Both the position numbers and the translations under genes were made by a program. The notes under the pieces are model-generated. The model was not told the DNA's origin and ran no database searches. It saw only the letters and a program-made list of their open reading frames with translations. A DNA stretch of 36,528 bases from Candidatus Neomarinimicrobiota bacterium (GTDB lineage Bacteria; Fidelibacterota; UBA8477; JABMPR01), in NCBI GenBank assembly GCA_034716895.1, contig JAYEKW010000124.1:1-36528 (forward strand), read 5' to 3'. This document shows, piece after piece, positions 6,897 to 35,518 of the stretch; the first letter of the stretch is position 1; every line of letters starts with the position of its first letter.

Positions 6897-7382
6897 ATGC
6901 GTTTCAGATATTTCATACCCCTGCTTATTTTGATCCTGTTCAACTTTTGCTCCAAACAAAGTCCTGAAGTTCAACTGAGTGACCCGGGTTTTGGCGTGGT
7001 AGAGACCCATATTGACGTTGATAAAGTTGTCGACCTTCCGGTTTTGATCAAATTTGATCAGGTCATCAAAGGCATCCAGTTCACCTTGACCTGGGATACG
7101 GCAATTGTCAAAGTTGGTCAGCCCGAACTAACTGAACTAAATTCGGGTTTTACGGTCAGCACCAGTAAGGGGACAGGAGGTGAAATGAAAGTTTTGGTCT
7201 TCAGTATGACTGGGGACGTGTTGAACACCTCTGAACCTGAGATTCTGTCAATTCCCATAAGTGTTCTCGATTCCCTGGCGGACCAGGTCTCTCTCCTGTT
7301 TGACAAGGCAGTGTTTGCCGGACCAAATGCCCTGTCCTATGATATCCCTGTTACACACGCTAATTTGACTGTCAGAAAATAA
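6897..7382 (+). CDS. Small lipoprotein with cohesin-like domain
   Basis: A 161-residue protein with the N-terminal signal [18 protein letters not shown], so Cys18 is probably lipidated, although the lipobox is not canonical. The remainder looks like a single cohesin-type beta-sandwich. It begins with VDLPVLIKF, continues [15 protein letters not shown] and ends with strands such as [10 protein letters not shown]. Cohesin domains bind dockerins in cellulosomes but also occur singly in non-cellulosomal bacteria, so a role in surface protein assembly is only a guess. It sits 6 bases after recN, and its TAA overlaps the next ATG by one base (TAATG). The coupling to recN and a threonine aldolase looks organisational, not functional. 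Confidence 0.7.
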
Positions 7383-29710: not shown

Positions 29711-30466
29711 ATGATGACAATGACAGATAATCCCTCAGAGCTTATTCGTTTTAATCGCTTTCTGGCTATGGCTGGACTGGGGTCTCGACGGGTTTGCGAT
29801 GAACTTATCCAGAAAAACTTAATTACCGTGAATGGTCAGGTGGAGCAAAACCCGGCCGTTCGGATCGATCCAGACCGGGATGAAGTAGTGTTCCAGGGAA
29901 AGACTATTCGATTAGAACCCCGCTATCATTATTACTTGCTCAATAAACCAGCCGGCGTGATCACCACCACCAACGATCCTTTTGGTCGAAGGACTATAAT
30001 AGATCTTTTACCGGATCGGGAACGAGTCTATCCGGTGGGTCGCCTGGATTATGATACAACCGGGGCAATTCTGGTGATCAATGATGGTGAACTGGCCTAC
30101 CGCTTGACCCATCCCAAGTTTCAAATCCCCAAAACCTATACAGTACGCGTGTTGGGACAGGTCAGTCAGGCTGATCTGGCGCGCTTGCCTCTTGGCATAA
30201 ATATTGAAGCTAAGACCCCAGCAATTGCCGAGGTTCTAAATCACAGTTATTCTGATCGGTTTACCGATGTAAGACTGGTATTGAGAGAAGGACGCAAACG
30301 CGAGATCAAAAGAATTTTTATGGCTCTTGGACACAAGGTGATCAAACTACACCGAGAGCAATTTGCATTTTTAAGAGTGGATGACCTTGCCGCGGGAAAG
30401 TTCCGGGAATTGTCAAGCTCAGAGATCACAAAATTGAAGGAATTAGCGCATGGATATCAAGGGTAA
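29711..30466 (+). CDS. rluB: Pseudouridine synthase, RsuA/RluB family
   Basis: A 251-residue enzyme with an N-terminal S4 RNA-binding domain (about 12-60, with LGSRRVCDELI) and a pseudouridine synthase domain. The catalytic Asp113 is in GRLDYDTTGAI. It also has YYLLNKPAGVITT and the C-terminal LREGRKREIKRIF. It isomerises uridine to pseudouridine in rRNA. RluB (23S) is most common beside scpA/scpB, but RsuA or RluE/F specificity cannot be excluded from the sequence. Several ATGs are clustered at the start (29711, 29714, 29720). Its end overlaps the next gene by 17 bases. Confidence 0.92.
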   Translation: MMTMTDNPSELIRFNRFLAMAGLGSRRVCDELIQKNLITVNGQVEQNPAVRIDPDRDEVVFQGKTIRLEPRYHYYLLNKPAGVITTTNDPFGRRTIIDLLPDRERVYPVGRLDYDTTGAILVINDGELAYRLTHPKFQIPKTYTVRVLGQVSQADLARLPLGINIEAKTPAIAEVLNHSYSDRFTDVRLVLREGRKREIKRIFMALGHKVIKLHREQFAFLRVDDLAAGKFRELSSSEITKLKELAHGYQG

Positions 30467-32159
30467 ACGAGTCATGATATTTGGTGGTTGGGGCCTGGTT
30501 GGCTCTGCCATTGCAAAGCAGTTATTGGAAGAGCAACCTTCAGAGATTGTCGTTACTTCACTGCGCGAACATGAAGCGAATGAGATACGAGTCATTCTGG
30601 AAGAGCATCCCTTGAATCATGGCACGAAAATTTTTGCAGTGCATGGTGATCTTTTTGTGCGGGATGAGCTATCCGGTATACCCAAGGCTGATATCTATTC
30701 AAATCCAGAGCAGGTTGACCTGTTGATCCATGATATCTATGACGATCTTGGAAGTGATGTCGTTCAGAGTTCTCAATTATTTCAGGTTATGGATACTTAC
30801 AAACCACAGATCCTCATTGATTGCATCAATACTGCCACAGTGTTTGCCTATCAGAATGTCTATCAGATCGTGGCAGAACTTCGGGCTGAGATCAATCAGA
30901 TCCGCAAGGGGAAGGACTCCAGCGATGACCTGATCGAAACCGTAGAAAAGATCATCTCCACCCTCTATATCCCGCAACTCATTCGTCACGTTCAGATCTT
31001 GATCGAGAGTATGCGACAGGCTGAGACCATCCTGTATTTAAAAGTGGGCACCAGTGGAACAGGTGGCATGGGCTTTAATATTCCCTACACTCATTCAGAG
31101 GACAAACCCTCCAAAATGCTCATGAGTAAATCTTCCCTGGCAGGCGCTCAAACCATGTTGCTCTGGCTGTTGGGGCGTACTCCCAATGCTCCTGTGATTA
31201 AGGAGATCAAACCCACAGCAGCTATTGCCTGGAAAAAGATTGGTTATGGGAAAGTAGTACGGCGTGGTAGTCACATTCCGCTGTATGATGCCTTGCCAGG
31301 TGTGAACACGCTTCTTGGTGTTGAGTTGGTCAAAGCACCGGAGGAAACCTGGGAGCGGCTTGGGAATGAGTATCTGGAGTCGGTGTATATTGATGCCGGA
31401 GAAAATGGGTATTTCTCAGCAGGTGAGTTCTCGGTTTTAACTGGTGAAGGACAGATGGAGTTTGTGACCCCTGAGGAAATAGCCGACCTGACTTTGTTGG
31501 AGCTCAAGGGAGGTAACACAGGTAATGATATTATTTCCAGTCTGGATGGGTCGGTTCTGGCACCATCATACCGTGCCGGTGTAATTCGCAAGGATGCCCT
31601 GGAAAAGATGAAAGCCCTGGAAGAAGAAACCGGTAAAGACAGCGTTGCTTTCGAATTATTGGGACCGCCCAGATTAACCAAATTGTTATACGAGGTTTAT
31701 CTTCTAAAACGTCTTAAGGGTACTATCAAAGCTGTTATAGAAGCAGATCCGGTAGAATTGGCTGCCCAGATGGAGCGTGAGATACAGGAAAATCAGGAGC
31801 TGCGGGCAACCATTCTCTCAGTCGGAACCCCCATTCTGCTCGTAGATGGAAAAACCTTTCTCCGCGGACCTGATATGTCAGTACCAAATTTCGAAGGGCG
31901 TACAGTTCTTGACATAAATGCTGAAAATATTAATAAATGGACCAGCGATGGTTGGCTGGATTTGCGCGTGGCCAATATGGAAAAATGGCAACAGCGCCTG
32001 GTGGATCTTCACGCGGATATGGAAAAAGAGACCAAGCAGGATTACAGCTCATATTATTTCAGAAATAGACGTTTTCTGGGTGGTACCCGGAGAATGGATA
32101 TTGGTCTGATCGTCAATTGGATCCTGGAATACGAAGACATGGGTTACCGTATTAAATAA
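30450..32159 (+). CDS. Rossmann-fold protein of unknown function
   Basis: A 569-residue protein with an N-terminal NAD(P)-binding Rossmann motif IFGGWGLVGSAIAKQLL (residues 10-26), resembling NAD-dependent epimerases and dehydrogenases. The family YxxxK catalytic pattern is not obvious. The middle contains Gly-rich GTSGTGGMGFNIPYTHSE (about 200-217) and KPTAAIAWKKIGYG. The C-terminal third has helical, charged stretches and ends DIGLIVNWILEYEDMGYRIK. It is about twice the length of ordinary short-chain dehydrogenases and I cannot name a substrate. AAGGAA lies about 8 bases before the ATG, which is inside rluB, so the two are translationally coupled. A hairpin terminator follows. Confidence 0.8.
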   Translation: MDIKGKRVMIFGGWGLVGSAIAKQLLEEQPSEIVVTSLREHEANEIRVILEEHPLNHGTKIFAVHGDLFVRDELSGIPKADIYSNPEQVDLLIHDIYDDLGSDVVQSSQLFQVMDTYKPQILIDCINTATVFAYQNVYQIVAELRAEINQIRKGKDSSDDLIETVEKIISTLYIPQLIRHVQILIESMRQAETILYLKVGTSGTGGMGFNIPYTHSEDKPSKMLMSKSSLAGAQTMLLWLLGRTPNAPVIKEIKPTAAIAWKKIGYGKVVRRGSHIPLYDALPGVNTLLGVELVKAPEETWERLGNEYLESVYIDAGENGYFSAGEFSVLTGEGQMEFVTPEEIADLTLLELKGGNTGNDIISSLDGSVLAPSYRAGVIRKDALEKMKALEEETGKDSVAFELLGPPRLTKLLYEVYLLKRLKGTIKAVIEADPVELAAQMEREIQENQELRATILSVGTPILLVDGKTFLRGPDMSVPNFEGRTVLDINAENINKWTSDGWLDLRVANMEKWQQRLVDLHADMEKETKQDYSSYYFRNRRFLGGTRRMDIGLIVNWILEYEDMGYRIK

Positions 32160-32166
32160 CGATTTA

Positions 32167-32201
32167 GTCGAGGCAGGTCAGTGATCTGCCTCGACAATTT
32201 T
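32167..32201 (+). terminator. Hairpin terminator after 569-aa gene
   Basis: GTCGAGGCAG and CTGCCTCGAC form a perfect 10-bp stem with a 9-base loop, starting 7 bases after the stop codon. It is followed by AATTTT, a short T-run, so it is a probable intrinsic terminator that separates this operon from the cmk-rpsA gene. Confidence 0.7.
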
Positions 32202-32335
32202 CACTCCATTATTCTACATAAAATTCAATTATTTAGGTCCGCTCTTCGGGGTTGTGTTGGCCTATGCCGTCAGCTATATTGCGCCGCTTTGGAAGGGCTA
32301 GATAACATATTGTCAATAATTACGGTATTTGAAAT

Positions 32336-35300
32336 ATGATCATTGCTATTGATGGTCCTGCCGCTTCCGGGAAAAGCTCAACTGCTCATGGAGTAGCTGA
32401 ACGTCTGGGATTTCGGCACATCGATACAGGTGCCATGTACCGGGCGATCACTCTAAAGATAATCAATGAAAAAGGTGATCTCGCTCAAACTGATAAGCTG
32501 CAAGATATATTGGACACACTAGATCTTAGAGTCGAATTTACAGGCAATTCGCAGGATCTTTTCCTTGATGGAGAATTGCTGGGAGATCAGATTCGTTCCC
32601 CTGAAGTTACCGAGTTGGTGGCAGATGTCAGCGCGCTGGCGTGTGTCAGGCAACGTTTGTTGGGACTTCAGCATGATGTGGCAGAAGCTCACGATGTTGT
32701 TCTTGAAGGTCGTGATATTGGGACAGTGGTTTTTCCTGATGCCGAGATCAAGATTTATATGATTGCCGATATCATGGTTCGCGCCCAACGTCGGCAGAAG
32801 GACTTTCATCAGCAGGGAGTTGAAAAATCACTTGAGGAGCTTAGCGCAGAAATTCTGGCCAGAGATGAGCACAATGCCCAACGTGAACTCGCTCCCATGA
32901 AAGCGGCTGAAGATGCAATTACACTCGATACCACCGAATTAAGTATCGAAGATCAAATAGAATTTATTGTCTCCAAGGTGGAGACAGCGAAGTCAAACGG
33001 AGGAAACTTAATGACCAAGAAACAAGACATGGATGCTAAAGTCGAAGCAAGTGAAGAAACACCTGTTGAAACGACTGGTGAAGCGATTGAGGTATCTGCT
33101 GAATCCCAAGACGCCGTCGAGATGACGCCCGCCGAGGAAACGATAGACACTGCTAGTGAAGCCCCTGCTGAAGCAGCAAAGGTTGAAGAAGCAGTAGGTG
33201 AAGCGCCTGGAATTGAAGCCCCTGCTGAAGAAACAAAGGTTGAAGAAGCAGTAGGTGAAGAGCCTGTAGTTGAAGCCCTCGCTGAAGCAGCAAAGGTTGA
33301 AGAAGCAGTAGGTGAAGAGCCTGTAGTTGAAGCTCCTGCTGAAGAAACAAAGGTTGAAGAAACAGTAGGTGAAGAGCCTGTAGTTGAAGCCCCTGCTGAA
33401 GCAGCAAAGCTTGAAGAAACAGTTGCAGAAGAACCTGTCGCTGAAACTCCTGTCGAAGACGAAAAATCTGCCCCTGAAGCTAAGGACATGTCCCAGGGTA
33501 AACGGGCATTGATGAACGATCTTTTTGCCAGTATTAAAGTCTTGAAGAAAGATGAATTACCGGAAGAGCAGGAAGTCTTAAGCAAAGAATCGGTTGCCTA
33601 CCAGGATCTTCTGGATCACGCAGTTATCGATCTGGATCAGCAGTCATTGGTTCAGGGTCGTATCATATCTGTAGGTGATCGCGAGATCATGGTTGACTTT
33701 GGATTCAAATCCGAAGGAGTTGTGGCTCGTCATGAATTTGATGAGGATGAAATACCACAAGTTGGTGATTCAATAGAGCTATTCCTGGAACGCATCGAGG
33801 ACAAGGTTGGGCAGGCTGTTTTGTCCAAACGTAAAGCTGAATTCATGCGCGTTTGGGATAATGTTAAACAAAAATATGCCGATGGTGAAACTGTTGAGGG
33901 AACTATCTCTCGCCGGATCAAAGGTGGCATGGTTGTCAATATCCTGGGAGTTGATGCCTTCTTGCCTGGTTCTCAGCTGGACGTGCGACCCATCAGGGAT
34001 TTTGACGCGTATGTTGGAAAATCTTTCGAATTCAAGATCGTTAAGGTCAATGAGTTTCGTAAAAATATAGTTGTCTCCCGTAAAGAATTGCTCGAAGAGA
34101 GTCTCAAAGAACAGCGTAGTAAGTTGCTTGAAGAGATTGAGGTCGGACAAATTCTAGAAGGCCGGATCAAGAATATCACAGATTTTGGTGTTTTTGTGGA
34201 TCTGGGTGGCATCGATGGTCTGCTACATATTACTGACCTCTCATGGGGTCGCGTAAATCATCCTTCTGAAGTAGTTGGACTGGATGAAGATATTATAGTA
34301 AAAGTCATTGATTATGATACAGCCAAACAACGGGTTTCTCTGGGTTTAAAACAGCTGAAACCGCATCCATGGGAAAGTGTTGTTGAGAAGTACCCAGAAG
34401 GGACTGTTGTAAAAGGCAAGGTAGTCAGTCTGGCTAACTACGGTGCTTTTATTGAACTCACTGCTGGTGTAGAGGGTCTCGTTCATATCTCAGAGATATC
34501 CTGGACTCAACACATCAAACATCCTTCTGATGTCTTTACCGTTGGTGATGAGATCGATGCTGCTGTTCTGTCTGTTGACGCTGAAAACCATAAGATCTCT
34601 CTTGGTGTTAAGCAATTGCAGCCCGATCCCTGGACCACAATAGAAGAAAAATACCTGGTTGGATCCGTCCACGAAGGGACTGTTCGCAACCTGGCTCAGT
34701 TTGGTGCATTTATCGAACTTGAAGAAGGCATTGATGGTCTTGTGCATATCTCAGATCTGTCCTGGACCAGCAAGGTTCGTCATCCAAAAGAGATCGTTAA
34801 TCGTGGTGATAAGATCGATGTTAAGATTCTTGATATTTCTCAGAGTGAACGGAAAATATCGCTTGGGATCAAGCAAGCCCAAGAAAACCCCTGGCCTGAG
34901 CTGAAAAACCGCTTTGCCATTAACTCGGTTCAAAAAGGTACGGTCATCAAATTGCTTGAAAAGGGTGTCATCCTTGGTTTTGCTGATACTGATGTAGAAG
35001 GAATTATTCTACTTGGTAGTTTCCGCAAAAATGAACGCAAGGATATCCTGGATAAGTTCGAAGTTGATGCTGAAGTTGAAGTAAAGGTCGTTGAAGTTGA
35101 TGCAACTGAGAAAAAAGTTGTGGTCAGCCATGAAGCGGCTATCAAGGATAAAGAACGGGCAGAGATTGATGAGTTCATCCGCGGTCAGGATGATGTTAGC
35201 GATAAGCTCCAGATCCCGGACTCTATCGTCAACCAGATCCGCGAGGCAGAGGAAGCAGCTGAAGTAAAGACTGTAAAAAAACCTGCCAAGAAAGCGGCTG

Positions 35301-35518
35301 CTCCTAAAAAGAAAAAACCGGCAGCGGCAAAAGCAGCACCCAAGTCTAAAAAGGATGCTGAAAGTGAAGAAGCTCCTGAAGCCGAGGCAGTTGCAGAAGT
35401 TAAAGAAGCTCCTGAAGCCGAAGCAGTTGCTGAAGGTAAAGAAACCCCTGAAGCCGAGGCACCTGTTGAAGTCGAAGAGGCTCCAGAGGCAGCTGGTGAA
35501 GAAGAAGAGCAAAAATAA
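32336..35518 (+). CDS. cmk-rpsA: Cytidylate kinase fused to ribosomal protein S1
   Basis: One uninterrupted 1060-codon frame. Residues 1-225 are a full-length cytidylate kinase (CMP/dCMP to CDP/dCDP): P-loop GPAASGKSS at 7-15, DTGAMYRA, EGRDIGTVVFP and RDEHNAQRELAPMKAAEDA. Residue 226 onward is S1, which binds mRNA on the 30S subunit. It has an acidic extension (226-420) with five 19-residue repeats, then six S1 domains starting near 434, 516, 603, 690, 776 and 862. The middle three are canonical, with FGVFVDLGG, YGAFIEL and FGAFIEL. A Lys/Ala-rich tail (about 975-1002) and acidic repeats follow. GGAGG at 32999-33003 with ATG at 33011 (residue 226) allows free S1 to be made. cmk and rpsA are neighbours in many bacteria, and I recall a similar fused annotation in Treponema. 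Confidence 0.92.
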   Translation: MIIAIDGPAASGKSSTAHGVAERLGFRHIDTGAMYRAITLKIINEKGDLAQTDKLQDILDTLDLRVEFTGNSQDLFLDGELLGDQIRSPEVTELVADVSALACVRQRLLGLQHDVAEAHDVVLEGRDIGTVVFPDAEIKIYMIADIMVRAQRRQKDFHQQGVEKSLEELSAEILARDEHNAQRELAPMKAAEDAITLDTTELSIEDQIEFIVSKVETAKSNGGNLMTKKQDMDAKVEASEETPVETTGEAIEVSAESQDAVEMTPAEETIDTASEAPAEAAKVEEAVGEAPGIEAPAEETKVEEAVGEEPVVEALAEAAKVEEAVGEEPVVEAPAEETKVEETVGEEPVVEAPAEAAKLEETVAEEPVAETPVEDEKSAPEAKDMSQGKRALMNDLFASIKVLKKDELPEEQEVLSKESVAYQDLLDHAVIDLDQQSLVQGRIISVGDREIMVDFGFKSEGVVARHEFDEDEIPQVGDSIELFLERIEDKVGQAVLSKRKAEFMRVWDNVKQKYADGETVEGTISRRIKGGMVVNILGVDAFLPGSQLDVRPIRDFDAYVGKSFEFKIVKVNEFRKNIVVSRKELLEESLKEQRSKLLEEIEVGQILEGRIKNITDFGVFVDLGGIDGLLHITDLSWGRVNHPSEVVGLDEDIIVKVIDYDTAKQRVSLGLKQLKPHPWESVVEKYPEGTVVKGKVVSLANYGAFIELTAGVEGLVHISEISWTQHIKHPSDVFTVGDEIDAAVLSVDAENHKISLGVKQLQPDPWTTIEEKYLVGSVHEGTVRNLAQFGAFIELEEGIDGLVHISDLSWTSKVRHPKEIVNRGDKIDVKILDISQSERKISLGIKQAQENPWPELKNRFAINSVQKGTVIKLLEKGVILGFADTDVEGIILLGSFRKNERKDILDKFEVDAEVEVKVVEVDATEKKVVVSHEAAIKDKERAEIDEFIRGQDDVSDKLQIPDSIVNQIREAEEAAEVKTVKKPAKKAAAPKKKKPAAAKAAPKSKKDAESEEAPEAEAVAEVKEAPEAEAVAEGKETPEAEAPVEVEEAPEAAGEEEEQK
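32999..33013 (+). promoter_or_regulatory. Internal ribosome binding site and ATG for S1
   Basis: GGAGG is followed after 7 bases by an in-frame ATG at 33011 inside the cmk-rpsA frame. It is among the best ribosome binding sites in the window and lies exactly where cytidylate kinase should end. The preceding codon is TTA, one base from TAA. It suggests that S1 is also translated alone, or that the stop codon was lost recently. Confidence 0.7.
33161..33445 (+). repeat. Five 57-bp tandem repeats in S1 extension
   Basis: Five head-to-tail units of 57 bp encode 19-residue acidic repeats of the type APAEETKVEEAVGEEPVVE. Units start at 33161, 33218, 33275, 33332 and 33389. Units alternate between EAAK and EETK variants, so a 114-bp dimer is the likely duplicated block. 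The high DNA identity points to recent expansion and possible copy-number variation. Confidence 0.9.
35369..35515 (+). repeat. 36-bp acidic repeats at S1 C-terminus
   Basis: Three 12-residue units of the type EAPEAEAVAEVK start at 35369, 35405 and 35441. A diverged fourth (EAPEAAGEEEEQK) runs to the stop. They follow the Lys/Ala-rich segment, so the tail is basic then acidic. Confidence 0.85.

Follow-up and report, generated by a model that had tools for sequence, protein, structure and literature searches.

A cytidylate kinase–ribosomal protein S1 gene fusion in Candidatus Neomarinimicrobiota that retains an internal S1 start signal and carries a candidate RNA element

The cmk-rpsA locus and its open frame

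The window, that is, the whole stretch of 36,528 nucleotides analysed here (contig JAYEKW010000124.1), carries a locus at which the cytidylate kinase gene, cmk, runs into the gene of ribosomal protein S1, rpsA, without a stop (Table 1), just as a preliminary description of this DNA had reported; the positions it gave for the GGAGG motif, the TTA codon and the ATG that follows (33011-33013, codon 226 of the fused frame) proved exact. The hosts of the fused gene are a group of uncultured marine bacteria.

Table 1. Features of the cmk-rpsA locus, in window positions
Feature	Position	Strand	Basis
Single open frame, Cmk-S1 fusion, 1060 aa	32336..35518	+	No internal stop over 1060 codons
(d)CMP kinase domain, residues 1-216	32336..32983	+	PF02224, TIGR00017, alignment to solved Cmks
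Candidate hairpin A, 8-bp GC-rich stem TGTCTCCA/TGGAGACA, RGG triloop	32968..32986	+	Genus only
Internal Shine-Dalgarno GGAGG for S1	32999..33003	+	-9.5 kcal/mol to anti-SD
TTA codon; TGA at the same place in G017	33008..33010	+	Congener alignment
Nested frame of predicted free S1 (835 aa), its S1 domains preceded by an acidic linker	33011..35518	+	Start homology to unfused relatives, synonymous constraint
Candidate RNA stem P2	33031-33036 with 33092-33097	+	Anchored pair counting, RNAalifold
Candidate inner stem P2b, covarying	33040-33043 with 33085-33088	+	Anchored pair counting
Candidate RNA hairpin P3, CGUCG-NGA-YGACG plus flanking pairs, core GCCGTCGNGAYGACGCCC	33106..33137	+	Near-invariant at rpsA, 19 species

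The N-terminal domain of the fused product is classed as a (d)CMP kinase by TIGR00017 (219 bits against a curated cut-off of 135.55), and its residues 3-216 match Cytidylate_kin (Pfam PF02224) at 222 bits against a cut-off of 26. Its catalytic motifs GPAASGKS, DTGAMYR and GRDIGTVV are intact, and it matches solved Cmks end to end (e.g., 2h92), with the P-loop and the substrate (CMP-binding) motifs present. C-terminal to the kinase domain lie five Pfam S1 stretches, and alignment to 30S S1 models places the S1 core at approximately residues 406-964. Two of these models were passed (NF004952, 678.7 vs 524; NF005208, 557.7 vs 368) and two were narrowly missed (TIGR00717, 567.4 vs 577; NF004953, 716.8 vs 720), so that the fusion, having several S1 domains and exceeding a 30S S1 equivalog cut-off, is classed as ribosomal protein S1. 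The 3.45-Mb assembly (G000:C124) carries one cmk, and a second multi-domain S1 was not found in the genome, the sole other match to the fusion being a one-domain S1 hit within a separate frame of 737 aa; the fused gene is thus the genome's sole source of both Cmk and S1.

Positions 33050-33480 encode an acidic, repeat-rich linker (GEEPVVEAPAEETKVEE units) that separates the S1 domains from the S1 start and whose length is highly variable among species, and the C terminus of S1 forms a second, acidic/lysine tail. Upstream of cmk-rpsA, positions 30450-32159 encode a 569-aa protein whose sole Pfam match is marginal (PF02719, 20.5 bits).

The internal S1 start and the history of the junction

Ranked by Shine-Dalgarno (SD) energy, the S1 ATG stands second among the 188 in-frame internal ATGs of the window's ORFs of at least 150 aa, and the motif GGA GGA AAC TTA ATG recurs in congeners assembled independently, which together argue against a start that arose by chance. 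The canonical 16S 3' end, GGATCACCTCCTT, was found within genuine SSU rRNA genes of the congener G017 and of G021. A stronger SD (-10.9 kcal/mol) than that of S1 precedes another in-frame ATG, at 7185, inside an ORF of 161 aa (6897-7382); the apparent start of this ORF may be wrong, or the ATG may be a nested start.

In all fused loci examined, the junction holds a start codon preceded by an SD, with a mean duplex energy of -8.9 kcal/mol at the S1 start compared to -2.9 kcal/mol at the cmk start, and with the weakest junction SD, in f28g61, at -5.6 kcal/mol. The codon phase of this SD varies (GGA GGA in f1, GAG GAG in f2, AAG GAG in f6g7 and AAG GAA GGA in f23), the motif being conserved between families as DNA despite the shifted phase and the altered amino acids. 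The S1 start of unfused relatives is homologous to the nested-frame start at 33011.

Synonymous diversity among 13 fused congeners averages 0.43 and reaches its minimum, approximately 0.06 among 820 windows of codons, in windows that begin at codons 208-213, reaching across the internal start, and at codons 256-258, the second minimum lying about 40 codons past the internal start at the P3 block. The lowest synonymous windows of fused f2g3 likewise lie at the internal S1 start, and those of the unfused clades f3, f11 and f9/f12/f13 at the genuine S1 start. In fused f6g7 (L027-L029, L031, L032 and L176), synonymous variation is lowest about 7-22 codons past the internal S1 start, which suggests that another element occupies the corresponding position there.

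An SD at every fused junction examined, its independence of codon phase, the synonymous minimum and the same footprint in unfused clades indicate that the internal start, proposed in the preliminary description, behaves as a real one; the locus has the makeup of a nested in-frame gene, namely an internal ribosome-binding site and start under selective constraint. Judged by these sequence signatures, it would function like a genuine S1 start, and a protein initiated from it is predicted.

Related genomes were searched for single-frame cmk-rpsA, as the preliminary description had proposed, and the frame was found open in 13 of the 14 loci of the genus that were aligned over the junction, as well as in several further Neomarinimicrobiota families. 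The sole unfused congener, G017, carries separate genes (GGA GGA ACT AAC TGA ATG). Elsewhere the fused junction reads TGG ATG (f1g2), TTC ATG (f2g3), AAA GTG (f4g5), TTG or TTC ATG (f6g7), TTA ATG (f6g22 and f23g35) or AAA ATG (f28g61). In genus f6g17 the genes are in phase but separate (GGA GGA AAA TGA ATG), and separate cmk and rpsA, often out of phase, occur in many other families of Ca. Neomarinimicrobiota. Origin of the fusion by loss of a stop codon, suggested earlier from this one sequence, agrees with the relatives: immediately ahead of the aligned ATG, G017 and genus g17 have TGA, and others have TGG or TTA there. The stop that they show is TGA and not the predicted TAA.

In the mechanism that we propose, an ancestral cmk-rpsA operon would have had the cmk stop directly before the S1 start (TGA ATG), and in this lineage the stop would have become the sense codon TTA. 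Ribosomes starting at cmk would then read on into S1 and make Cmk-S1, the cell's sole Cmk, and those starting at the retained SD and ATG would produce free S1 (835 aa). S1, unlike Cmk, is required in amounts that match the ribosomes, and so free S1 would probably be the bulk of the S1. Given how strongly the S1 start signal is preserved inside the joined gene, the cell probably makes both Cmk-S1 and ordinary free S1. Our favoured reading, held with fairly good confidence, is that the internal start would yield most S1, that the full-length protein is the only Cmk, and that the candidate RNA element described below probably regulates S1 initiation. The earlier idea that a fused form brings the kinase to the ribosome in a fixed ratio finds no support: with the internal start kept, S1 output would no longer be tied to that of Cmk, and the S1 SD is far stronger than the cmk SD.

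Whether the fused form serves any purpose is a separate matter. An alternative to which we give even chances is that stop codons at the cmk-rpsA boundary appear and vanish neutrally, Cmk tolerating a C-terminal S1 tail, S1 always coming from its own start, and the fused form having no special role; it has the nested-start mechanism in common with our preferred explanation and differs from it only on purpose. The Cmk+S1 tree (67 loci, 31 of them fused; a quick tree with some long branches) speaks for this alternative, since the fused or unfused label needs at least seven changes on it, at least four of them forced by well-supported branches, and G017, with its TGA, groups with the fused G002. 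With so many gains and losses the stop must have been lost or regained repeatedly: its loss looks recurrent, and at least once it was apparently regained. Against neutral drift stands the frame itself, which is open across the genus and its order and may therefore be maintained by selection.

The candidate RNA element

The stems P2 and P2b and the hairpin P3 form a candidate structure common to 19 species of one order. Counted from the A of the start codon, P2 begins exactly 20 nt downstream, and its distance to P3 is constant throughout these species; the loop of P2b differs widely in length. Over the whole structure 93.8% of cells are paired, a value that falls to 23-54% when the partners are slid. 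Two-sided changes were observed at eight pairs, compared to 3.5 in shuffles, with none of 500 shuffles reaching eight, these being controls that ignore relatedness, and related sequences inflating such counts. Three of the eight pairs belong to hairpin A and stem from stray pairs in non-genus rows, and so the real weight falls on P2b, P2 and the near-invariance of P3, whose core is present at rpsA, nearly always exactly, in every f1/f2 genome whose locus covers that part.

Hairpin A lies in the 3' end of cmk, 12 nt upstream of the S1 SD, and its stem is invariant within the genus save for U-G wobbles. In single-species folding its predicted probability is 0.68-0.95 in 14 of 15 genus sequences and 0.00 in the window's own sequence, whose minimum-energy fold favours a long-range pairing instead. 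RNAalifold run on the alignment recovered P2 and P3 and did not recover hairpin A. The long-range pairing, which joins two frozen blocks, was set aside, having support in a minority of species only.

A covariance model of the structure matches the genome strongly at a single place, the cmk-rpsA locus, and no Rfam family scores above its gathering score in 32200-33600, where a 15-bit chance match was the only hit. P3 was rejected as a dispersed repeat, since it occurs once in the window's genome. Outside the order, matches to P3 with one or two mismatches are about as frequent as in controls, and those inspected, three in number, lie in other genes; weak covariance-model matches in f6g17, f8, f9 and f23 fall mostly on the start region or linker and have broken pairs, and an extension of the element beyond the order was likewise discarded.

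The conserved blocks past the start could instead owe their conservation to amino-acid or codon-ramp constraint and not to a folded regulatory RNA. Start-proximal regions are often codon-biased, and low synonymous change at the S1 start is seen in the unfused clades too. The P3 nucleotides, however, are kept while the amino acids change (GAGATG/GAGACG/GTGACG/GCGACG), and compensation is two-sided both in P2 (G-C/A-U in G017) and in P2b (A-U/G-C, C-G/U-A and U-A/C-G; anchoring was used to align this stem, which falls in the acidic repeat-rich linker), at constant spacing from the ATG and P3. We thus regard such constraint as an unlikely explanation of the blocks.

Read as a folded RNA, the structure inside the coding sequence, around and just past the internal start, would most simply be a translational operator that probably tunes S1 initiation, and feedback by S1 would be the most likely form of regulation, a leading guess by analogy with gamma-proteobacteria. 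We put forward more tentatively, as a possibility that we rate somewhat below even, that it constitutes a new class of cis-regulatory RNA which lies wholly within a fused coding sequence, spans the internal S1 start and sets the ratio of free S1 to Cmk-S1, possibly by binding either protein, so that one frame would give two proteins in a regulated ratio.

Known systems and the meaning of the fusion

Enzyme-S1 fusions are established in the form of the IspH-RPS1 'Rosetta stone' proteins, and a CMP kinase-IspH-RPS1 triple fusion occurs in Candidatus Arthromitus (PMC4746011). As in IspH-RPS1, the gene described here places a housekeeping enzyme at the N terminus of S1 with no separate gene copies, and, as in the triple fusion, Cmk is the first domain (PMC4746011). 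It differs in that the enzyme part is Cmk and not IspH (NF000907 matches only in the S1 part, at 504 bits vs 624), in the direct linkage of Cmk to a full-length S1, in belonging to an unrelated phylum, and in that its nested S1 start is conserved; the word 'internal' is absent from the IspH-RPS1 paper (PMC4746011).

These precedents bear on the reading in which the fusion protein alone is made, a ribosomal S1 carrying a Cmk domain, as IspH-RPS1 may carry its enzyme, with GGAGG and ATG left as relics or held by protein-coding constraint. IspH-RPS1 is present in hundreds of bacteria that lack any other S1 gene, and the purified protein is active (PMC4746011). On the other side, synonymous sites near the internal start are frozen, f2 and f6g7 retain the SD in another codon phase with other amino acids, and G017, with its TGA, sits among fused congeners, all of which make a fusion-only product improbable in our judgement. 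As for an assembly or sequencing error (TAA to TTA), the difference is of a single base, but the identical TTA ATG recurs in many species assembled independently, other codons bridge the junction in the f2, f1g2 and f6 lineages, and the frame is open throughout the congeners and families listed above, leaving error a negligible chance.

The nested-start mechanism that we favour has a parallel in Cas11, a nested in-frame product of a CRISPR large-subunit gene (PMC11899642); in both cases internal in-frame translation gives (here, is predicted to give) the C-terminal part as a separate protein, whereas what is nested in cmk-rpsA was once a gene of its own and encodes a ribosomal protein. The autoregulated rpsA initiation region of gamma-proteobacteria resembles the present locus in having structured RNA around the rpsA start, here a candidate structure, but has no canonical SD, and addition of one abolishes control (PMC10931766). 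The fused gene has a strong GGAGG, and so any mechanism here must differ; most of its candidate structure falls within coding sequence past the start. NCBIfam also describes bifunctional Cmks fused to other partners (pantoate--beta-alanine ligase/Cmk, EPSP synthase/Cmk and Cmk/Der), and none of its models among the 25 best matches describes Cmk-S1.

No Cmk-S1 fusion was found outside Neomarinimicrobiota among the listed loci that hold both genes and are readable, and we found no paper in the open-access literature on a direct Cmk-S1 fusion, in this phylum or otherwise, or on S1 in the phylum. Enzyme-S1 fusions and nested in-frame products being known, what is new is the recurrent, direct fusion of Cmk to S1 with a strictly retained nested S1 start, plus the candidate RNA element.

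Free S1 would be missed by gene callers that report one long protein. The repeated fusions of the same two genes, with the downstream start always kept, form a natural series, which allows a test of whether S1 'Rosetta stone' fusions reflect function or arise as by-products when a stop is lost and the former start continues to work. If confirmed, the RNA element would represent a mechanism of rpsA control that retains a strong Shine-Dalgarno sequence.
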